Of a stretch of 64,000 nt of DNA, positions 7,050 through 30,039 are shown in pieces (the first letter of the stretch is position 1; each line of letters starts with the position of its first letter). The translations under genes and the position numbers were made by a program. The DNA lies in contig NZ_CP095855.1 of the NCBI RefSeq assembly GCF_023100805.1, forward strand, positions 6,551,001 to 6,615,000. The letters are read 5' to 3'. Origin of the DNA: Chitinophaga filiformis (GTDB lineage: Bacteria > Bacteroidota > Bacteroidia > Chitinophagales > Chitinophagaceae). The notes under the pieces are model-generated. The model saw only the letters and a program-made list of their open reading frames with translations. It was not told the DNA's origin and made no database searches.

Positions 7050-9530
7050 ATGCTTAAACGTCTACTCCTGGCAGCGTTTATGTGCTATGGCAGTATTGCT
7101 ATGGCTCAAACCGGTAATAGTTCCGCTAAATTCGTCGGCAAAGCTCTGGACGCCGTTACCGGCAAACCCGTGGAATATGCGTCTGTCGTATTACTTAATT
7201 CGCAGGATTCTTCCGTAGTGACAGGTATGTACACGCAAGCCGATGGCGATTTCTCCTTCAATACCGTTTCCGCAGGTACCTATGTGCTCCGCATCACCTT
7301 CATGGGTTATGATAAGCTCGTAAAAGCCGTGAAGATCATTCCGAACAAACCGGTGCAGTTTGCGGGTACACTCCGTCTGCAACCCGCCGGTAAAACGCTG
7401 GCCACCGTGGAGATCAAGTCGGAGAAACCAGCCTTTTCCATGCAGATAGACCGCCAGGTATTTGACGCCGGCAGTATTGTTACCGCGGAAGGCGGTTCCG
7501 GTACAGATGTCATGAAAAACATCCCGAGCGTAGACGTGGATATTGACGATAATATCACCCTCCGGGGTAAAAGCGTGACCATTTATGTAGACGGCAAGCC
7601 CTCCCCTTTCGGAGACGCTAAAACCGCCCTCCAGATGATCCCGGCTTCTACAATTGATCGTGTAGAGGTGATCAATAACCCCTCCGCCAAGTTCGAGGCC
7701 CAGGGCGGTGGCGGTATTATCAATATCGTACTGAAAAAAGATAAGGCGATCGGATATAATGTGATGCTCAATGCCGGTGTAGCCACCCGCGGACAGCTCA
7801 ACGGGAATGTCAACGCCAGCCTCCGCATCCGGAAATTTAACTTCTTCACCAATTATAATGGCTGGTACGGTAGCCAGACAGGCTATGGTTACAGCAACCG
7901 TCAGAATCTCGTAACTGATACCGCCGGTACCGCCTTCTTTACCCAGGACAGCCGGAACAAGAACAGCAATTCCGGCAATGGCGGCCGTATCGGGCTTGAC
8001 TATTATTTGAACGATTATAATACCATCACTATTTCTGAGGGATTAAACCTCAATAAGGGCAATAGTACGGACGATATCATGCTGGACTACCTGGACGCCC
8101 ACAGAAAGGCGCTCCAGACCGGCGAACGGCATAACAGCAGCGATTACCGTAATCCGAATAACAATACCAGCCTGAACTTCCGCCATACCACCGACAAACA
8201 GAACGAGGAATGGACCGCCTATATCAGTTATAGCAACAATAAAGGCCGGAACAACAGTAACTATAGCACCCAGTATCAAAATGCGGATGGTACGCCCGGA
8301 AATGCCCAGTTACAACGAAATTTAGGTATCTCCCAGAACAAGTTCTGGAATATCCAGACGGATTATACCACGCCGGTAGGTAAGAAAGGAAAGTTCGAAA
8401 CCGGGGCGAAGGTGACCCTGCAGAGCAACGACAATGATTATGACGCCCGCCTGTTCAACTTCAGCACCCAGCAATATGAGAAAAGCCTTGACCTCTCCAA
8501 CACCTACTATTACAAGCAGGACGTTTACGGGGGATATATGAACTTTTCCAATGCTATCGGCAACCTCGGGTACCAGGTAGGCGCCAGGATTGAGCAGGCC
8601 GACCTGCGGGGCTTCTCCTATACCAAAGATACCTCGGTGAATAACCGTTTCCTGAATGTATTTCCCAGCGTATTCCTGAAGTATAACCTGCCGCACAATG
8701 AGAACCAGAGCCTGATATTCAACTATTCCACGAGAATAGACAGGCCCGGCTTTGACCAGCTGCTGCCATATATCAACAACTCTGATCCGCAGAATATCCG
8801 GGCAGGGAACCCGGATCTGAAGCCGTCCCTGACCCATAAATTCGAGGCGAATTATTCCAGGTATTTCCCCGGGTCCAAAGACTACCTGAATACAGGCGTA
8901 TATTATTCCCAGGCAAACGACGATATAGACCGTATCAGCATCCTGGACACCGCTACCGGTGTTACCACTACCCGGCCCATGAACCTGGCTACCGATAAGG
9001 ACTGGGGCGCTAATTTCACCTATAACCTGCATATCATCAAGGGTTGGAATGTGACTACCAACCTGAATATGGAGTATAGCAAACTGACCGGTCCGAGTAT
9101 TAACAATGAGTATGTTACCTATGGGGTGACTGTCAATTCCAATGTACGCCTGCCGGCAAAGATCAACCTGCAGGTAAACGGGCATTACCGCTCACCCAGG
9201 GTACAGCCGCAGGGTACTTTTAAGGCCATGAATGGGATAGATCTGGGTATCCGTAAAGAGATGCTGAAGAACAATGCCCTGGCTATTGCCCTGAATATTT
9301 CGGATGTGCTGAATACGCAGGATTACAGCTCACATTATGAAACTGCGGCCTTTATCCAGGATTATACCCGTAAAAGGACCACCCGTTTCCTCCGCCTGAA
9401 CATACGCTACCGTTTCGGGAAAATGGATCCGGATATGTTTAAGAAGAAAAAGAAACAGGAGGTGCCTGAAGAAGATGTGTATGATAAAGAAAAAGATAAG
9501 GATAAAAAGCCCGCGGACAGCACTTTATGA
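7050..9530 (+). CDS. Outer-membrane beta-barrel receptor (OMP_b-brl_3 / TonB-dependent receptor type)
   Basis: An 826-residue outer-membrane protein. Residues 1-19 are a signal peptide (MLKRLLLAAFMCYGSIAMAQ, cleaved after AMA). Residues about 28-110 form a carboxypeptidase-regulatory-like beta domain (GKALDAVTGKPVEYASVVL). A plug domain covers about 130-230 with the motif IPASTIDRVEVINNPSAKFE and GGIINIVLKKD. The remainder is a large beta-barrel of the OMP_b-brl_3 (PF14905) type. The protein ends in an unusual lysine/aspartate-rich tail (FKKKKKQEVPEEDVYDKEKD) rather than the aromatic residue normal for a barrel terminus. The substrate is unknown, and there is no SusD partner nearby. Its last six bases overlap the convergent pcm gene. 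Confidence 0.88.
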   Translation: MLKRLLLAAFMCYGSIAMAQTGNSSAKFVGKALDAVTGKPVEYASVVLLNSQDSSVVTGMYTQADGDFSFNTVSAGTYVLRITFMGYDKLVKAVKIIPNKPVQFAGTLRLQPAGKTLATVEIKSEKPAFSMQIDRQVFDAGSIVTAEGGSGTDVMKNIPSVDVDIDDNITLRGKSVTIYVDGKPSPFGDAKTALQMIPASTIDRVEVINNPSAKFEAQGGGGIINIVLKKDKAIGYNVMLNAGVATRGQLNGNVNASLRIRKFNFFTNYNGWYGSQTGYGYSNRQNLVTDTAGTAFFTQDSRNKNSNSGNGGRIGLDYYLNDYNTITISEGLNLNKGNSTDDIMLDYLDAHRKALQTGERHNSSDYRNPNNNTSLNFRHTTDKQNEEWTAYISYSNNKGRNNSNYSTQYQNADGTPGNAQLQRNLGISQNKFWNIQTDYTTPVGKKGKFETGAKVTLQSNDNDYDARLFNFSTQQYEKSLDLSNTYYYKQDVYGGYMNFSNAIGNLGYQVGARIEQADLRGFSYTKDTSVNNRFLNVFPSVFLKYNLPHNENQSLIFNYSTRIDRPGFDQLLPYINNSDPQNIRAGNPDLKPSLTHKFEANYSRYFPGSKDYLNTGVYYSQANDDIDRISILDTATGVTTTRPMNLATDKDWGANFTYNLHIIKGWNVTTNLNMEYSKLTGPSINNEYVTYGVTVNSNVRLPAKINLQVNGHYRSPRVQPQGTFKAMNGIDLGIRKEMLKNNALAIALNISDVLNTQDYSSHYETAAFIQDYTRKRTTRFLRLNIRYRFGKMDPDMFKKKKKQEVPEEDVYDKEKDKDKKPADSTL

Positions 9531-10181
9531 TTTCTTGCCGGCCAGCATGGGCACGAAAGAAAAGTTATCAAACATTTCCTGGTCATATTCGGTATCGCTG
9601 ATCTTTGTAATGCGCAGCATCCGCTGCACCTCCTGACCGCCTACCGGGATGACCATTTTTCCGCCCACTTTCAGCTGCTGCAGCAGTTTTTCGGGGATCT
9701 GCGGGGCTGCCGCTGTCACCAGGATCTTATCAAAGGGCGCATAAGTGGGAAGTCCCTCATAACCATCGCCATAGAAGAAACGGATGGTAGGATATCTTGA
9801 CTTGAAAGGAAATTGCTTTACCAGGTCAAACAGCTTTTTCTGCCGTTCTATGGTAAATACATTGGCTTTCAGCTCTGCCAGTACACAAGCCTGGTAAGCG
9901 CTGCCGGTACCGATTTCCAGTACTTTCTCAAAGGGCTTGATTTCCAGCAACTGTGACTGATATGCCACAGTATAGGGCTGTGAAATGGTCTGACCTTCCC
10001 CGATGGGGAAAGCCCTGTCCTCGTAGGCAATGCCTTCAAAAGCTGTATCCAGGAAATAATGCCGTGGGATGTTGTTGATAGCCGTTAATACATTTTCGTC
10101 TGTAATGCCTTTCTGCCGGATACTATCTACCAGTTGCCTGCGTAATCCTTTTTGCTTGTAAGAATCTTCGTACCGCCTCAT
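9525..10181 (-). CDS. pcm: Protein-L-isoaspartate O-methyltransferase
   Basis: This enzyme (EC 2.1.1.77) transfers a methyl group from S-adenosylmethionine to isoaspartyl residues in damaged proteins. A 218-residue product starts at ATG 10179-10181; a TTG nine codons upstream is less likely. Visible signatures are the family segment IGEGQTISQPYTVAYQSQLL, the SAM-binding motif I VLEIGTGSAYQA, FFYGDGYEGLP and the motif FDKILVTAAAPQIPEKLLQQL. Its length matches the family (about 210-220 residues). It is cytosolic. It converges on the receptor gene with a six-base overlap of coding ends. Confidence 0.95.
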   Translation of the reverse strand: MRRYEDSYKQKGLRRQLVDSIRQKGITDENVLTAINNIPRHYFLDTAFEGIAYEDRAFPIGEGQTISQPYTVAYQSQLLEIKPFEKVLEIGTGSAYQACVLAELKANVFTIERQKKLFDLVKQFPFKSRYPTIRFFYGDGYEGLPTYAPFDKILVTAAAPQIPEKLLQQLKVGGKMVIPVGGQEVQRMLRITKISDTEYDQEMFDNFSFVPMLAGKKS

Positions 10182-10380
10182 ACCCGCAAAATTAACCAAT
10201 ACCCCCAATTTTCAATTGGGTGTGGAATACTTCTATTTATCAACATTACTGGTTTGTTTGTCCAAAATAACTTGGTTTGATAATTGCTGAGTTCTTTCCC
10301 GGCTATTCATTTTCTCCGGATTTTAGCTTTAATTTACACACTTGTTTTTTCTCAATAAGAAAACAAATCGAAATCGTTCT

Positions 10381-12105
10381 ATGGATAATATCATTGAAAG
10401 TAAGGTATCACAGTGGCTCAGTGGACAATTCGACACGGATACCGTGGCCACGATCAAGAAATTGCAACAGGAAAACCCCGACGAATTAGCTGATGCTTTT
10501 TATCGCAGCCTGGAATTTGGAACAGGCGGTCTGCGCGGGGTAATGGGTGTAGGCACCAACCGTATGAATAAATATACGGTAGGTATGGCTACCCAGGGAT
10601 TTGCCAACTACCTGAAGCAGGCCTTCAGCGGCGAGATCAAGCTGGCCATCGCACACGACAGCCGCAACAACAGCCGTTATTTCGCAGAAGTTGCTGCTAA
10701 TGTACTGGCTGCCAATGGTATTAAGGTATATCTTTTTGAAAGCCTCCGCCCCACCCCTGAACTGTCATTCACCATCCGTCACCTGGGTTGCCAGGGTGGT
10801 ATCGTGCTGACAGCCTCCCACAACCCTAAAGAATATAACGGTTACAAGGCCTACTGGAACGACGGCGCCCAGCTGGTACCGCCTCACGATAAGAACGTCA
10901 TCCGTGAAGTAGAGAAGATCGCTTCCATTGACGAGGTAAAATGGTCCGGCGGAGAAGCCAATATTACCAGTATTGGTAAGGATGTGGACGAAGCCTACCT
11001 GCAGGAACTGAAAAACCTCAGTATCCAGCCGGAAATCATCAAAGAACAACACGACCTGAAAATAGTTTACACGCCTATCCACGGTACAGGTATCACCCTG
11101 GTGCCTGAGATCCTGAAACGTTATGGGTTTACCAACGTGCATGTGGTGGAAGAACAGGCTACCCCGGATGGTAATTTCCCTACCGTGGTATATCCTAACC
11201 CGGAGGAATCCGAAGCGATGAGCATCGGTCTGAAGAAAGCCAAAGAACTGGATGCTGCCATCCTGCTGGGCACTGACCCTGACTCTGACCGTGTAGGTAT
11301 TGCTGTTAAAGACATCAAAGGCGAATGGACACTCCTCAATGGTAACCAGACCGCTGTACTGCTCTTTAACTATATCATCGAAGGCCGCAGGCGTAAGGGT
11401 CTGGCCGGCGATACTGATTACGTATGTAAAACAGTCGTTACCTCTGACCTCATCGATGTATTCGCTGCCAGCAATAACGTAAAATGCTACAATGTACTGA
11501 CCGGCTTCAAATGGATCGCTGATCTGATCAGACGTAAGGAAGGTCAGGAGAAATTCATCTGCGGTGGTGAAGAATCTTACGGTTATATGATCGGCGATAA
11601 TGTACGTGATAAAGACGCTATCGCTTCTGTTGCACTGATCTGTGAAATGGCGGCTTATGCACGTAGCCAGGGCAGATCACTGTATGAACAGCTGATCGAC
11701 ATCTACGTGAAATACGGTTATTATAAAGAGAACCTGATCTCCATCACCAAAAAAGGTATGAAAGGTGCAGAGGAAATTGCCGATATGATGCGTGGTTATC
11801 GCGAGAATCCGCCAAGCACTATCAATGGTTCTCCGGTAGTTACATTGTACGACTACGAACTGCAGCAGGTGAAAAACCTGAAAACAGGTGAAGTAAAACC
11901 GATCGATCTGCCAAGATCTAACGTACTGCAGTTTGTATTGGAAGATGGCAGCAAGATCTCCGCCCGTCCTTCTGGTACCGAGCCTAAGATCAAATTCTAC
12001 TTCAGCGTAAATCAGAAACTTGAGAATGCGGCCGGCTTCGATGCGGCTACTCAGGCGCTCGATCAACGCGTACAAAATATTATTAAGGATATGAAGCTGA
12101 AATAA
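10381..12105 (+). CDS. Phosphosugar mutase (phosphoglucomutase/phosphomannomutase family)
   Basis: A 574-residue alpha-D-phosphohexomutase that interconverts the 1- and 6-phosphates of glucose or mannose. The start is ATG 10381 (MDNIIESKV); an in-frame TTG at 10342 lies further up. Family landmarks in order: GTGGLRGVMG near residue 40, the active-site serine loop LTASHNPKEYNGYKAY (about 139-154), the metal-binding loop GTDPDSDRVG (about 297-306), the sugar-binding loop CGGEESYGYMIGD (about 395-407) and the phosphate-binding loop RPSGTEPKIKFY (about 533-544). The length fits the 'long' PgcA-type group. It feeds cell-wall and exopolysaccharide nucleotide-sugar synthesis. An intrinsic terminator follows. 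Confidence 0.95.
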   Translation: MDNIIESKVSQWLSGQFDTDTVATIKKLQQENPDELADAFYRSLEFGTGGLRGVMGVGTNRMNKYTVGMATQGFANYLKQAFSGEIKLAIAHDSRNNSRYFAEVAANVLAANGIKVYLFESLRPTPELSFTIRHLGCQGGIVLTASHNPKEYNGYKAYWNDGAQLVPPHDKNVIREVEKIASIDEVKWSGGEANITSIGKDVDEAYLQELKNLSIQPEIIKEQHDLKIVYTPIHGTGITLVPEILKRYGFTNVHVVEEQATPDGNFPTVVYPNPEESEAMSIGLKKAKELDAAILLGTDPDSDRVGIAVKDIKGEWTLLNGNQTAVLLFNYIIEGRRRKGLAGDTDYVCKTVVTSDLIDVFAASNNVKCYNVLTGFKWIADLIRRKEGQEKFICGGEESYGYMIGDNVRDKDAIASVALICEMAAYARSQGRSLYEQLIDIYVKYGYYKENLISITKKGMKGAEEIADMMRGYRENPPSTINGSPVVTLYDYELQQVKNLKTGEVKPIDLPRSNVLQFVLEDGSKISARPSGTEPKIKFYFSVNQKLENAAGFDAATQALDQRVQNIIKDMKLK

Positions 12106-25311: not shown

Positions 25312-26523
25312 TTACGCTATCACCAGTTTGGCTGCACGTCTTCTCACGCGAACAGCGCACCAGATCACAGCTCCCAATACCGCCGACATCACCAGGTAAC
25401 GGAGCACCATATCCTGCTGTGTTTCTATTTTACCCGTCCGGGAAAGTGTAAAGCTGGAAATGGATGTCATTACATACACCAGTCCGCCCAGCAAGCCGCT
25501 TGCCATACCCGCATTCTGCGGGAAATACAACATACCCTGTGTAAAGAAGAGATTATACAGGAAACCGGAGCAGATATGAATAAAGAAAGCAAACAACATG
25601 AGGCACCATAACTGCTGATAACCGTAACCGATCAGGAACAGTACCGCGATCAGTGCAAACTGCACGATACCAGCAGTAGCCGCTTTCCTGTTAAAATCCA
25701 GTGCAATAAGACGCTTGCCAATGATCCCTCCTATCATCCAGGAAAAACCCAATATCAGGGTACAATACCCGATCACAACCGCGTTGAAATGAAAACTGTT
25801 CTCGATCACAAAAGGCCCGGCCATGTTGAATACCATCACAACGGAATAAGCCATGCCCAATGTAATGATCCCCAGCAGGAACTTCGTGTTCCCCAGCATC
25901 ATCACATAGTTATCCTTTATCCTGCCCAGATCCACCCGCTTACGTTCTGCGATCGTTTCACCGCTAAAGATCAACTCAAACACCAGCATGAGGAATGCAT
26001 ATATCGCCAGGAAGTAAAAGTTCGACTGCCAGTTGAAATACTTTTGCAGATATCCTCCCAGGAACGGCGCTACTATCGGGCCGAGCGACCAGATAATGGT
26101 GAAGAAACTAAGGAAATGCTTCAGCTTATTACCTGAATACAGGTCCACAAAGAATGCCCGTTTGGAAACGACAACAAACGATACCGCTATCCCCTGTATG
26201 ATCCTCAGAAAACAGATCAGCTCAACATTTTTTGTGATACCGATCAGCAAGGAAGATACTATCAGCACGCCCAGACCATACATGGCAGGTTTGAACCGGC
26301 CAATGCTGTCCAGCAGGCTGCCGACAAACAACTGGGAGACGCCATAACTAAGAAAAAAACATGTAAGTGTAAGCTGTATATTATGTTCCGCTACGCCAAG
26401 GCTGTTGGCCATTGTGGGGAACGATGGTAAATAAATGTCTGTAACAAAGCCCGACAAGGGAATTGAAATGAAAGCAAGTATTGTCGCTATCTTCTTTCTT
26501 CTATCTGATGCGCTTCTTAACAT
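25312..26523 (-). CDS. Bcr/CflA-type MFS drug efflux transporter
   Basis: A 403-residue major facilitator with about 12 membrane helices. The first helix segment (FISIPLSGFVTDIYLPSFPTMANSL) matches the Bcr/CflA drug:proton antiporter subfamily, and SLLDSIGRFKP fills the place of the conserved loop 2-3 motif. RIIQGIAVSFVVVSKRAFFVDL corresponds to the motif C/D2 region. It is predicted to export small molecules from the cytoplasm. It follows the AraC regulator at 26614-27540 on the same strand with a 90-bp gap, so the regulator probably controls it. The substrate is unknown. Confidence 0.9.
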   Translation of the reverse strand: MLRSASDRRKKIATILAFISIPLSGFVTDIYLPSFPTMANSLGVAEHNIQLTLTCFFLSYGVSQLFVGSLLDSIGRFKPAMYGLGVLIVSSLLIGITKNVELICFLRIIQGIAVSFVVVSKRAFFVDLYSGNKLKHFLSFFTIIWSLGPIVAPFLGGYLQKYFNWQSNFYFLAIYAFLMLVFELIFSGETIAERKRVDLGRIKDNYVMMLGNTKFLLGIITLGMAYSVVMVFNMAGPFVIENSFHFNAVVIGYCTLILGFSWMIGGIIGKRLIALDFNRKAATAGIVQFALIAVLFLIGYGYQQLWCLMLFAFFIHICSGFLYNLFFTQGMLYFPQNAGMASGLLGGLVYVMTSISSFTLSRTGKIETQQDMVLRYLVMSAVLGAVIWCAVRVRRRAAKLVIA

Positions 26524-26613: not shown

Positions 26614-27540
26614 TCAAAGAATCGCTTTTACCTTCGACTGGCGGAACTGCAAAGGGGTGGTGCCCATTGCTTTCTTGAAGAAATGATTAAAATGAGCGGG
26701 ATCCTCGAAACCCAGGCAATAGCCCACCTCCGAGATATCCCATTGGGTGTTCTGCAGCAGCGTTTTCGCCTCTTCCAGCACGCGGCTCTTGATAATAGCG
26801 GTGGTGGTATTGCCGGTAGTGCTTTTGACGACAGCATTCAAATGATTGACATGCACATTCAGTGCCCGGGCAAAATCAGCTGCCGTCTTCATTGTGAGCG
26901 GATGAGCCGGAGAGTCCAGGGGGAATTGCTGATGCAACAGCTCATCAAAACTCCGGAGCAAACGGGAAGATGCCGGTAATTCACTGGTATAGTTACCATT
27001 TGGCTGATCTACCAGCAGGGAGTGCATCAGCAAACACAGCAGGTTCCTGATTGCTTCATATTTAAATGGATAGTCGCTATGCGCCATCTCCATCATCTGC
27101 TCAAAATAAAGTGTTATCAGCCCCAGCTGCTTATCGTCCAGGAATATAACAGGCTCACTCCAGGCCTTGAAGAGCGATGATCGCTTAAAGATGTCAAACT
27201 GGTAATATTCGTTGAAGAATTCCTGGTTAAACAGGCAGTAATAACCGTCCTGATCATCAGATAAACTGGTCCATGCATAAGGCACAGAGGGACAGGGCAA
27301 CAATAAGGCAGGCCTGTCTATAATGATGGAGTTACCGCCATAAAACAGCTCTCCCGTTCCCAATATCAGCGTGATCTTATAAAAATCCCGCCTGTTATAA
27401 GGCGATTTGAAATTGCAGTACTTCCGGGTATTTACATTGAAATGAGACTTACCACTTTGCAGATCATTATTACTCAATGGAAAGTTGATATGTGATCTTT
27501 CCCGGTAAAAGTCGCTCAATGTCTCCAATTGCTGGCTCAT
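26614..27540 (-). CDS. AraC-family regulator next to an efflux pump
   Basis: This encodes 308 residues from ATG 27538-27540 (MSQQLETLSDFYRERSH); the upstream extension lacks coding character. An N-terminal AraC cupin-like domain (residues about 30-130) contains ITLILGTGELFYGGNSIIIDRPALL. The C-terminal double helix-turn-helix reads AADFARALNVHVNHLNAVVK and ISEVGYCLGFEDPAHFNHFF, ending TPLQFRQSK. This is the type that controls an adjacent MFS pump or oxidoreductase in Bacteroidetes. It is divergent from the hydroxylase-sulfotransferase operon starting at 27872, which it could also regulate. Confidence 0.92.
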   Translation of the reverse strand: MSQQLETLSDFYRERSHINFPLSNNDLQSGKSHFNVNTRKYCNFKSPYNRRDFYKITLILGTGELFYGGNSIIIDRPALLLPCPSVPYAWTSLSDDQDGYYCLFNQEFFNEYYQFDIFKRSSLFKAWSEPVIFLDDKQLGLITLYFEQMMEMAHSDYPFKYEAIRNLLCLLMHSLLVDQPNGNYTSELPASSRLLRSFDELLHQQFPLDSPAHPLTMKTAADFARALNVHVNHLNAVVKSTTGNTTTAIIKSRVLEEAKTLLQNTQWDISEVGYCLGFEDPAHFNHFFKKAMGTTPLQFRQSKVKAIL

Positions 27541-27871: not shown

Positions 27872-28546
27872 ATGAATTATATCAGATTCTCCGATACCTA
27901 CAACGAAGCCTTACTTGTTGCAGAACTTCAGCAGGTACTGCAACAGGATTGGTCCCTCCATTTCAACGCGAAAGATTTTAACGGCGACTGGCGCAGTATT
28001 TCCCTTCGTTCCGCCACCGGCAGGAACGATGATATCTATGCCCAGGCGAACGTCACCTATAAAAACACGCCGGCCCTGGAAATGATGCCCTATATAAAAC
28101 AGATACTCGACACCTGGCACTGTGAAAAGGAAGCCGTGCGCCTGCTCTCCCTCGCACCCGGCAGCGAGATTAAACCTCATAAGGATATGGGCTGCGGCTA
28201 CAGCGACGGCAATTTCAGGATTCATATTCCCATCATCACAAATCCGGAAGTATACTTTACCATAGAAGACGAAACGCTGCATCTGCAGGCAGGTGAATGC
28301 TGGTACATGGACTTCAGTAAGACGCACAGCATCGTCAACCATGGTCATACCGCCAGAGTTCACCTCATCATGGACTGTATACGCAATGAGTGGACCGACC
28401 AGCTATTTGCGGCGCATGGCTTCGACATTACAAGGAAAGAACCGGCATACGATGCCGCAACAAAAGCCAGGATGATCGAAGAGCTGGAAAAGATCGACAC
28501 CGAAGCTGCAAGAAATATTATTGCCAGCCTAAAAGCAGAAAGCTGA
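27872..28546 (+). CDS. Aspartyl/asparaginyl beta-hydroxylase-like 2-oxoglutarate dioxygenase
   Basis: A 224-residue Fe(II)/2-oxoglutarate oxygenase of the Asp/Asn beta-hydroxylase family (PF05118). The double-stranded beta-helix core shows a metal His at 103 (IKPHKDMG), a second His at 152 or 157 (KTHSIVNHGH) and a 2OG-binding Arg near 162 (TARVHLIM). FRIHIPII and the GECWYMDF strand complete the fold. The C-terminal ~55 residues form a helical extension. It is cytosolic, with no signal peptide. The stop overlaps the sulfotransferase start (TGATG), and an APS kinase follows, so hydroxylation and sulfation probably act in one pathway. The target is unknown; free amino acid, peptide or lipid-linked residue are options. 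Confidence 0.88.
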   Translation: MNYIRFSDTYNEALLVAELQQVLQQDWSLHFNAKDFNGDWRSISLRSATGRNDDIYAQANVTYKNTPALEMMPYIKQILDTWHCEKEAVRLLSLAPGSEIKPHKDMGCGYSDGNFRIHIPIITNPEVYFTIEDETLHLQAGECWYMDFSKTHSIVNHGHTARVHLIMDCIRNEWTDQLFAAHGFDITRKEPAYDAATKARMIEELEKIDTEAARNIIASLKAES

Positions 28547-29508
28547 TGCAGACATCCGCCATTACAAACTGGATACCTTATAAACTCAATTACACCCCAC
28601 AGGGATGGATGGTGAAATGGCTGGACCTGGGCGACAAGCGGATGGTCCTTCCGTTCTTTGACGAAACGATCCAGGTATGCCGCATCCGGCAAAAGCAGCG
28701 CTCTTCGCTGGAAAGCCTGTCCACCATGAATTTCGCTGCTGAAGTGAGTGAAGGTTTGCCGGCACTGGCGCCTGCTGCTTTCGTCTTCCATGTATCCCGT
28801 TGTGGCTCTACGTTGCTCTCTCAGGCATTTTCAGCGCCGGACGAAAACATCGTTGTAGCCGAAGCGCCGCTGCTGGATGAGATTTTAAGAGCGGCGGAAC
28901 ATCAGCCGGATCTTCCCGCGTCAACACGTGAGGCCTGGTTCAGGGCTGCTGTCAGGCTGATGGGGCAACAACGCAATTTTAAAGAACAGCACTATATCAT
29001 AAAACTGGACAGCTGGCATATTCATTTTTATGAGCTGCTGCGGCAATGGTATCCGCATACACCCTTTTTCTTCCTCTACCGTAAACCGGACGAGGTGATC
29101 GCCTCGCACGATAAACGCAGGGGCATTCATGCAGTTCCCGGTATGGTCTCTCCTGACCTGCTCAAAACGGACGCGCCAGCACATTTTGGAGGCGATTTTA
29201 ACCGTTATACGGCCCAGGTACTACAACAGTTCTATTTGAAACTACAAGGCATCCTTGCGCTTAATAACGCGCATAACAGCTTTTTTGATTATGCAGATGG
29301 CGTACAGGAAATGATAAGGACCTTCAGCTCTTTTTCCGGCGTGCCTGTCAATGATGAGGAACAGGTACAAAACCGCCTGAAATATCACAGTAAAGCAGCA
29401 CAGGAAGTATTTAAACCAGAATCCTTCGATAACAGGGAGCGTTTCTTCTTCCGGGAGGCACATGACGCATACGGGCAATTGAGATCATTGCACACATCAT
29501 CTATCTGA
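28546..29508 (+). CDS. Sulfotransferase-family protein
   Basis: This encodes 320 residues from ATG 28546, sharing a base with the hydroxylase stop. The P-loop-like 5'-phosphosulfate-binding motif is FHVSRCGSTLLSQAF (residues about 81-95). The 3'-phosphate-binding region is FFFLYRKPDEVIASHDK (about 168-184). These are the two PAPS-binding landmarks of the sulfotransferase family. The N-terminal 75 residues are an extra beta-rich region. The enzyme is soluble. Its place between a 2OG hydroxylase and an APS kinase implies that it uses PAPS made by the next gene to sulfate a hydroxyl group, perhaps the one installed by the hydroxylase; that last step is inference. Confidence 0.85.
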   Translation: MQTSAITNWIPYKLNYTPQGWMVKWLDLGDKRMVLPFFDETIQVCRIRQKQRSSLESLSTMNFAAEVSEGLPALAPAAFVFHVSRCGSTLLSQAFSAPDENIVVAEAPLLDEILRAAEHQPDLPASTREAWFRAAVRLMGQQRNFKEQHYIIKLDSWHIHFYELLRQWYPHTPFFFLYRKPDEVIASHDKRRGIHAVPGMVSPDLLKTDAPAHFGGDFNRYTAQVLQQFYLKLQGILALNNAHNSFFDYADGVQEMIRTFSSFSGVPVNDEEQVQNRLKYHSKAAQEVFKPESFDNRERFFFREAHDAYGQLRSLHTSSI

Positions 29509-29517
29509 CAAATTTCA

Positions 29518-30039
29518 ATGGGACATATCATTCAATTCACGGGCTTATCGGGGGCAGGCAAAACAACGCTGTCAAACGCCCTGCAGGAATGGGGCCATCA
29601 ACACCAGGTAAAAATCAAACTGATAGACGGAGACGTTTACCGGCAAACGCTGTGTAAAGATCTCGGCTTCAGTAAGGCAGACCGGCTGGAAAATATTTCA
29701 CGCCTGGGTGCTTACGCGGCTTCAATAGCGGCGGATTATGATTACATCTTCATCGCGGCCATCAACCCTTATGAAGAAGGAAGGAACAATCTTAAAGCGA
29801 AGTACGGCGCTACGCTCATCTGGCTGAAATGCAGCCTGCAGACGCTGATAGCAAGAGACCCCAAGGGATTGTACAGGAAAGCCCTGCTGCCCGACTCACA
29901 TCCTGACAAAATCCATAACCTGACCGGCCTGAATGATACCTTTGAAGAGCCGCAACATCCGGATCTGATACTGGAAACAGACAGTGTAAGCGTAGAAGAG
30001 GCCCTTCAACAGACAGTCAGTTTTCTCAATCGACTGTAA
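29518..30039 (+). CDS. cysC: Adenylylsulfate (APS) kinase
   Basis: This 173-residue enzyme (EC 2.7.1.25) phosphorylates APS to PAPS, the sulfuryl donor for sulfotransferases. Visible motifs are the P-loop GLSGAGKTT (residues 9-17), IDGD (36-39), the family stretch GFSKADRLENISRL (about 50-63) and ARDPKGLYRKAL (about 112-123). The length matches stand-alone CysC. It is nine bp downstream of the sulfotransferase. No ATP sulfurylase (CysD/CysN or Sat) is in the window, so APS must come from elsewhere. The C-terminal end overlaps the convergent gene 30026-30967 by 14 bp. Confidence 0.93.
   Translation: MGHIIQFTGLSGAGKTTLSNALQEWGHQHQVKIKLIDGDVYRQTLCKDLGFSKADRLENISRLGAYAASIAADYDYIFIAAINPYEEGRNNLKAKYGATLIWLKCSLQTLIARDPKGLYRKALLPDSHPDKIHNLTGLNDTFEEPQHPDLILETDSVSVEEALQQTVSFLNRL

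Follow-up and report, generated by a model that had tools for sequence, protein, structure and literature searches.

In the genome of Chitinophaga filiformis (RefSeq assembly GCF_023100805.1), a stretch of 64,000 nucleotides (contig NZ_CP095855.1, positions 6,551,001 to 6,615,000; the window in the following) contains three consecutive genes for a putative hydroxylase (HYD), a sulfotransferase (SUL) and an adenosine 5'-phosphosulfate (APS) kinase (APK). Comparative analyses suggest that this operon could be a tailoring cassette for small self-encoded phage-tail-Collar proteins, in which the C-terminal asparagine would be hydroxylated and then capped, and the probability of this reading is put at about 0.5. 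In a further-reaching form, for which the odds are somewhat below even, a dedicated system of Bacteroidota would post-translationally hydroxylate and then sulfate (or carbamoylate) the C-terminal Asn of self-encoded, domesticated tail-fibre-like Collar proteins, with the hydroxylase tracking this last residue. HYD is accordingly proposed as the hydroxylase of the C-terminal Asn of Collar proteins. This specific candidate replaces the broader guess of a preliminary description of the window, which had considered a peptide, an amino acid or a lipid as the substrate. The operon comprises the following genes:

27872-28546, strand +: HYD, 224 aa, PF05118-type Fe(II)/2-oxoglutarate (2OG) hydroxylase
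28546-29508, strand +: SUL, 320 aa, divergent sulfotransferase of the type that depends on 3'-phosphoadenosine 5'-phosphosulfate (PAPS)
29518-30039, strand +: APK, 173 aa, APS kinase (PAPS supply), NPY-type variant

Conservation of the three genes as a module

Relatives of SUL were found at five loci in a named genome collection, in 23 of 244 genomes of the family and in 12 of 395 genomes of the phylum. As the latter two counts both include the window's own gene, 38 loci remain beyond the window. Within the stretch fetched for each locus (about 9 kb on each side), HYD was found near SUL in 32 of these 38 loci and APK in 27, and 22 loci have the complete trio. The frequencies of HYD and APK beside SUL indicate that the arrangement is not due to chance, and conservation of the trio as neighbours, which the preliminary description had named as the point to be checked, was thus found. 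The phylum searches further show that the module also occurs outside Chitinophagaceae. The order HYD-SUL-APK is kept in all five close relatives, and the earlier view of the trio as one operon is supported; the positions of the open reading frames (ORFs), the one-base overlap of HYD and SUL and the nine-base gap between SUL and APK are also as had been described. Across the 38 loci, gene order and orientation vary freely (HYD-SUL-APK, APK-HYD-SUL, HYD-APK facing SUL, divergent HYD and SUL), with direct, divergent and convergent arrangements.

In three loci, HYD and SUL are fused into one gene (L045, L050, L057; loci and genomes are numbered with L and G, respectively). The distances of HYD and SUL are correlated with a coefficient of 0.90 over 32 loci and of 0.77 over 20 distant loci (0/2000 permutations in each case), compared with 0.42 for SUL and APK over 13 distant loci (120/2000 permutations). 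Because of this weak correlation, APK is regarded as a looser part of the module. The earlier notion of a module with its own donor supply is supported, with the proviso that APK, though frequent, is less firmly tied to it. An independent search for HYD in the same 244 family genomes detected the gene in 31 of them; 21 of these are among the 23 genomes with SUL, and ten have HYD only. Four of the six SUL loci that have no HYD in the fetched stretch belong to genomes with HYD elsewhere (G163, G003, G410, G519); the other two contain a SUL fragment (L076) and a distant sulfotransferase (L075).

Co-occurrence of the hydroxylase with Collar proteins

Clustering of the neighbourhoods of the 38 SUL loci identified small phage Tail-Collar proteins (PF07484; Collars) in 11 of them, often encoded by three consecutive genes, and many of these loci also carry genes for a binding-protein-like protein (PBP6) and a formyltransferase-like protein. 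At the genome level, Collars are encoded in 30 of 31 family genomes with HYD versus 46 of 213 without it (Fisher 1.3e-16), and in 23 of 23 phylum genomes with a strong HYD match versus 80 of 372 others (Fisher 5e-15). The two samples share the genome studied here and a few genomes without HYD. Collars are present in 52 of the 53 distinct strong-HYD genomes, or in 52 of 55 if two weak phylum matches that had been set aside are counted in (G285, 8e-30; G289, 7e-4). In 19 of the 53 genomes, Collars lie within the stretch beside HYD or SUL (20 with G183, the Collar of which is located at a contig end); in the remaining HYD genomes, the link is not one of physical proximity. Outside the phylum, a plasmid of the gammaproteobacterium Pseudoalteromonas (L092) carries HYD together with three Collars that all end with RN, and an Azospirillum plasmid carries a SUL relative with three Collars.

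PBP6 and formyltransferase genes also flank Collars in genomes without HYD (11/20 and 9/20 loci, respectively) and were therefore rejected as parts of the HYD module. Collar, PBP6 and formyltransferase are taken as an older core, to which HYD, SUL and APK would have been added. The genome of C. filiformis encodes four Collars. One, which ends with YPSRN, is encoded singly at L085 (G000:C1:6521423-6522019, 198 aa); its gene adjoins one for a binding-protein-like protein and precedes the operon by about 57 kb. In Chitinophaga sp. CF418, a distance of about 49 kb separates a Collar gene from the trio, provided that contig C5 holds L005, as its number suggests.

The three other Collar genes of C. 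filiformis are located at L084 (G000:C1:3866000-3885500), where they and a formyltransferase-like gene face a lasso-peptide-type cluster. This cluster encodes an Asn-synthase-like C protein (Pfam) and a B2 protein (PF13471); a nucleotidyltransferase, a PqqD-like B1 protein, an HprK-like kinase and two ORFs (42 and 43 aa) that resemble precursors were named by eye only. Collar triples are also found on plasmids of Proteobacteria, Deinococcus and Paenibacillus (L277, L279, L280, L281, L282), each with a nearby N-acetyltransferase gene, and several of them are flanked by very large or immunoglobulin (Ig)-like genes. According to PMC11633204, expression of a Collar triple of Acaryochloris, for which an acetyltransferase is listed nearby, is regulated by light.

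The C-terminal asparagine of Collar proteins

In a first comparison, 53 Collars, mostly from loci beside HYD and including the four distant ones of this genome and the three from Pseudoalteromonas, were set against 47 Collars from 20 genomes without HYD. The alignment column that differed most was the last one, which was Asn in 46 of 53 versus 10 of 47 proteins. As this column had been found by screening of columns, it was tested on new genomes and on Collars located away from HYD. Here, an Asn-ending Collar was present in 30 of 30 genomes with HYD (63 of 75 Collars) versus 10 of 24 genomes without it. Among 168 columns from 219 Collars, the last one has the highest mutual information with the presence of HYD (0.340, compared with 0.151 for the next column and a median of 0.060). 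When 18 further genomes without HYD were added, 106 of 125 Collars ended with Asn in genomes with HYD versus 29 of 136 in genomes without it (28 of 126 if tail-less Collars are excluded). These counts cover 50 of the 53 HYD genomes, leaving aside G097, in which no Collar was found, G183 with its contig-cut Collar, and G458, for which coordinates were unlisted, and they cover 62 of 64 fetched genomes without HYD, no Collar ORF having been obtained from G137 and G327.

A tree was based on 250 of 261 Collars (130-260 aa) from which the last eight residues had been removed. Among 17 independent pairs differing in HYD, on average 10.1 agreed with the presence of Asn and 1.3 disagreed (median p 0.012, range 0.002-0.23). 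Within the genus coded g108, Collars were fetched for 14 HYD genomes, and all 14 have one ending with -RN; two genomes without HYD were sampled, and the only Collar of each ends with RS and RP, respectively. The Asn end is also present in 19 of 20 genomes that have HYD only, indicating that this residue goes with HYD and not with SUL.

Several observations weigh against the proposed modification. At least one -RN Collar is found not only in 49 of 50 genomes with HYD but also in 15 of 62 without it; if any Collar ending with Asn is counted, the figures are 49 of 50 and 24 of 62. The usual tail is absent from all Collars of six of these 62 genomes, and their exclusion gives 15 of 56 for -RN and 23 of 56 for Asn. 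The Collars from genomes without HYD were chosen non-randomly from the listed best matches, and seven genomes with HYD were sampled at two Collar loci but every genome without HYD at one, so that the count per genome favours the former. A test per locus is less biased: all Collars end with Asn in 20 of 30 loci with at least three Collars in HYD genomes, versus 0 of 27 in genomes without HYD (0 of 26 without tail-less Collars), and five of the ten exceptions among the former belong to genomes that have another Collar locus ending with -RN (G000, G410, G442, G575, G209). Of the 125 Collars from HYD genomes, 19 lack the Asn end, including three of four in C. filiformis itself, where the Collars at L084 end with F, S and P, and the exception among the HYD-only genomes, G010, has a Collar ending with -RD. 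No Collar was found in G097, and G285 and G289 with their weak HYD matches lack Collars as well. Conversely, loci from Ruegeria, Pontibrevibacter, Deinococcus, Paenibacillus and Ensifer each contain one -RN Collar, and HYD was not found in the stretch fetched for them. Such Asn tails may mean that the tail is an old feature exploited by HYD, or a docking signal. A mark on the Collar tail specific for SUL was not seen, some pairings in the independent-pairs test are non-significant, and kinship and genome size are only partly controlled. AlphaFold2 (AF2) models from six close sequences had a mean pLDDT of 36 for SUL and 43 for HYD, which makes them unusable for the active site.

Alternative explanations

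The proposed scheme could hold for HYD only, in that HYD modifies the Collar C-terminus while SUL has its target elsewhere, be it a different residue or a metabolite, and APK phosphorylates something other than APS. This is considered unlikely. It would agree with the common occurrence of HYD-only genomes (10 of 31 in the family) with the same tail, with the margin of only 3 bits by which APK passes the equivalog cut-off, and with the NPY motif carried by APK and 27 of 30 other rows, the remaining three rows having SPY or SPF. The fusions and the tight co-divergence of HYD and SUL argue against such a separation, as does L078 of this genome, where a sulfotransferase gene again lies next to one for an APS kinase. 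Unlikely, too, is a role of HYD and SUL in making a modified amino-acid-like small molecule that is used or carried by Collar, PBP6 and formyltransferase, with the C-terminal Asn as a docking feature instead of a substrate. The nearest solved relative of HYD is a proline hydroxylase, genes for PBP6 and a formyltransferase-like protein are present in many Collar loci, and carbamoyltransferases of the NodU type are known in connection with small molecules. However, PBP6 and formyltransferase do not depend on HYD, as they are found beside Collars in genomes without it, and a separate metabolite would not predict that the most strongly tracked feature is the last Collar residue.

It is improbable that HYD and Asn-ending Collars both merely mark certain lineages or large genomes while the target of the trio is an unrelated one, for instance an amino lipid. 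The simple Fisher tests ignore kinship, genome size was uncontrolled and is unlisted for most genomes without HYD, and PF05118 includes lipid hydroxylases, but the physical neighbourhood of Collars and HYD or SUL in 19 of 53 genomes, the excess of agreeing independent pairs and the contrast within g108 argue against it. Even less probable is the tailoring of a lasso-type ribosomal peptide encoded near the Collar genes. At L065, SUL and HYD lie beside genes for a lasso-type B2 protein and an Asn-synthase-like protein (B1 and nucleotidyltransferase by eye), L090 and L089 carry a SUL relative with an Asn-synthase-like gene, and this genome holds the lasso-type cluster at L084. In addition, according to PMC8498205, canucin is hydroxylated at its C-terminal Asp by a 2OG enzyme, and lasso clusters of Firmicutes include a putative sulfotransferase gene. 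The B2 peptidase PF13471, however, was found in only 6 of the 53 HYD genomes, compared with Collars in 52, and a lasso peptide was therefore rejected as the general substrate.

Proposed reaction sequence and alternative caps

According to the Collar-tailoring scheme, HYD would read the free C-terminus and hydroxylate the terminal Asn of Collars ending with -(F/Y)P(S/A/T)RN. Action on a free C-terminus is suggested by the resemblance of HYD to a free-amino-acid hydroxylase and by the precedent of CanE, which acts on a C-terminal Asp. SUL would then esterify the new hydroxy group with sulfate from PAPS, and APK would make this PAPS from APS, with the chromosomal ATP sulfurylase as the source of APS. 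CysN is encoded in the genome (495 bits), so that APS can be made. The likely substrate in this genome is the Collar at L085 with its YPSRN end. Every chemical step is inferred, whereas gene order, conservation, catalytic residues, the co-occurrence of HYD and Collars and the association with a C-terminal Asn are observed.

In relatives, a NodU-type carbamoyltransferase beside HYD may cap the same hydroxy group with a carbamoyl group, instead of or together with SUL. Genes for such enzymes adjoin HYD in L129 and L134 (Pfam), and a model built from these two proteins finds further ones beside HYD in L164, L170 and L171; all five are HYD loci from genomes in which no SUL was found. With the same model, a carbamoyltransferase gene was also detected in two operons orthologous to that of the window, from C. 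filiformis DSM 527 (L007) and C. ginsengisoli (L008); in both, it immediately precedes HYD, and SUL is present as well. Different O-transferases beside one hydroxylase would fit a shared hydroxy product. The hydroxylate-then-sulfate logic of the preliminary description is supported in the wider form of hydroxylation and capping, and it gains strength from the three HYD-SUL fusions and from the carbamoyltransferase as a possible alternative cap.

If the scheme is correct, a new C-terminal modification would be added to bacterial protein chemistry, and three genes without a known purpose would be tied to one particular residue in one particular protein and to mass shifts that can be predicted. 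It would also provide a first handle on the Collar triples, which are found in Bacteroidota and on plasmids of other phyla, and would mean that unrelated enzymes, a sulfotransferase and a carbamoyltransferase, cap the product of one hydroxylase.

Family assignment and catalytic residues of the three enzymes

HYD matches PF05118 with 82.6 bits (curated cut-off 22.6), and the residues H103, D105, H152 and R162 are invariant in 59 of 59 aligned rows. We take the HxD...H motif to be the iron triad and the Arg residue to bind 2OG. The nearest solved relative is L-proline cis-4-hydroxylase (4p7w/4p7x), which was found with 8.7e-13 by the single sequence; profile A2 of 27 HYD rows matches 4p7w with 1.8e-20 over chain residues 24-198 of 292. 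Matches to LpxO and OlsC models are weak.

From its sequence, SUL is a divergent sulfotransferase. With 16.1 bits, the window protein remains below the Sulfotransfer_3 cut-off of 27, and this label, weak alone, is rescued by relatives that match the family: 22 of 28 aligned members do so at E <= 0.01, and of four singly scanned relatives, those from L047 and L045 are above the cut-off and two are below it. The motif R85-C-G-S-T89 and the residues R179 and S187 are invariant in 38 of 38 rows; presumably, RCGST is the 5'-sulfate loop, and R179 and S187 are the 3'-phosphate Arg and Ser. A PDB profile search with SUL gave no significant match.

APK is an APS kinase according to Pfam (PF01583, 124.1 bits, cut-off 21.1) and, narrowly, to NCBIfam (equivalog TIGR00455, 141.7 versus 138.7 bits), and it carries Walker A, DGD and KGLY motifs. 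NPY or NPF is present in 28 of 31 APS kinase rows and could possibly be a signature of sulfotransferase-linked APS kinases. Of the three rows with SPY or SPF (L045, L075, L077), however, those from L045 and L075 also have a sulfotransferase neighbour, which weighs against such a signature.

Further loci contain related genes. The second sulfotransferase-APS kinase pair of this genome, at L078 (G000:C1:4542761-4561213, 7397-9453), adjoins a gene of a glycolipid-binding family. At L077 (G000:C1:7184385-7202825, 7501-11439), an APS kinase gene is located between a gene for a FAD/NAD-binding protein and PALP and ornithine-cyclodeaminase-like genes, a set that, in our view, resembles a diaminopropionate cluster (SbnA/SbnB-like). 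At L075, a distant SUL relative (23%) is encoded with an APS kinase and an Asn-synthase-like protein, next to CysD-, CysN-, HprK- and nucleotidyltransferase-like genes named by eye; its genome, G136, has 18 Collar matches. A second 2OG oxygenase (PF13640, PKHD-type) is encoded near HYD, SUL or Collars in L045, L060, L131, L134, L138 and L140; in L060 it adjoins SUL, and HYD is not in the fetched stretch. Viral contigs yielded two weak SUL and five HYD-like loci, which are not informative for the trio; three viral contigs (L095, L096, L097) each contain two tandem HYD-like genes.

Relation to known systems

A sulfotransferase encoded together with its PAPS supply, as for SUL and APK, is known from RaxST with RaxP/RaxQ and from NodH with NodPQ. 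RaxST sulfates a tyrosine of RaxX and NodH a lipo-oligosaccharide, and unlike in the trio, neither is known to have a hydroxylase partner. AspH, the Asp/Asn beta-hydroxylase of epidermal growth factor (EGF)-like domains, shares the PF05118 name and the hydroxylation of protein Asn/Asp with the proposed function of HYD, but it acts on internal residues of EGF domains in the endoplasmic reticulum and not on a C-terminus. The AspH structure 5apa was matched by HYD with an E value of 0.95 only. L-proline cis-4-hydroxylase, although nearest to HYD in sequence among solved proteins, has 292 aa compared with 224 aa for HYD and uses free proline.

As described in PMC8498205, CanE hydroxylates the C-terminal Asp of the lasso peptide canucin A. 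Its substrate is a small lasso precursor, whereas the candidate substrate of HYD is a Collar of about 170-200 aa ending with Asn, and HYD, unlike CanE in this comparison, has a sulfotransferase or carbamoyltransferase beside it. SavH, a predicted Asp/Asn beta-hydroxylase from a biarylitide cluster (PMC13417212), belongs to the same predicted class as HYD and stands in a ribosomal peptide context. The part of this source that was available mentions sulfotransferases for 17 biarylitide clusters, not for that of SavH, and contains no link to Collars. In the open-access literature, the sole match for tail collar and sulfotransferase was a Pseudomonas syringae genome paper (PMC2745422), and the sole match for tail collar and hydroxylase was PMC11633204, the expression tables of which list a Collar triple and, unlinked to it, an Asp/Asn hydroxylase.

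Regulator and transporter genes beside the operon

Two further genes of the window are located near the operon:

26614-27540, strand -: AraC-family regulator (HTH_18, 67.7 bits), divergent from the operon
25312-26523, strand -: Bcr/CflA-type major facilitator superfamily (MFS) transporter, a neighbour in close relatives, membership uncertain

The divergent AraC gene beside the operon, already part of the preliminary description, adjoins the operon also in L005, L006 and L009 and is one gene off in L008 and two in L007; a homologue (40%) adjoins SUL in L065. It is a plausible candidate for the regulator of the operon. In each of the five sister loci, the fetched stretch includes the MFS transporter gene; beyond these, only distant MFS matches occur, beside SUL in L048 and L049.

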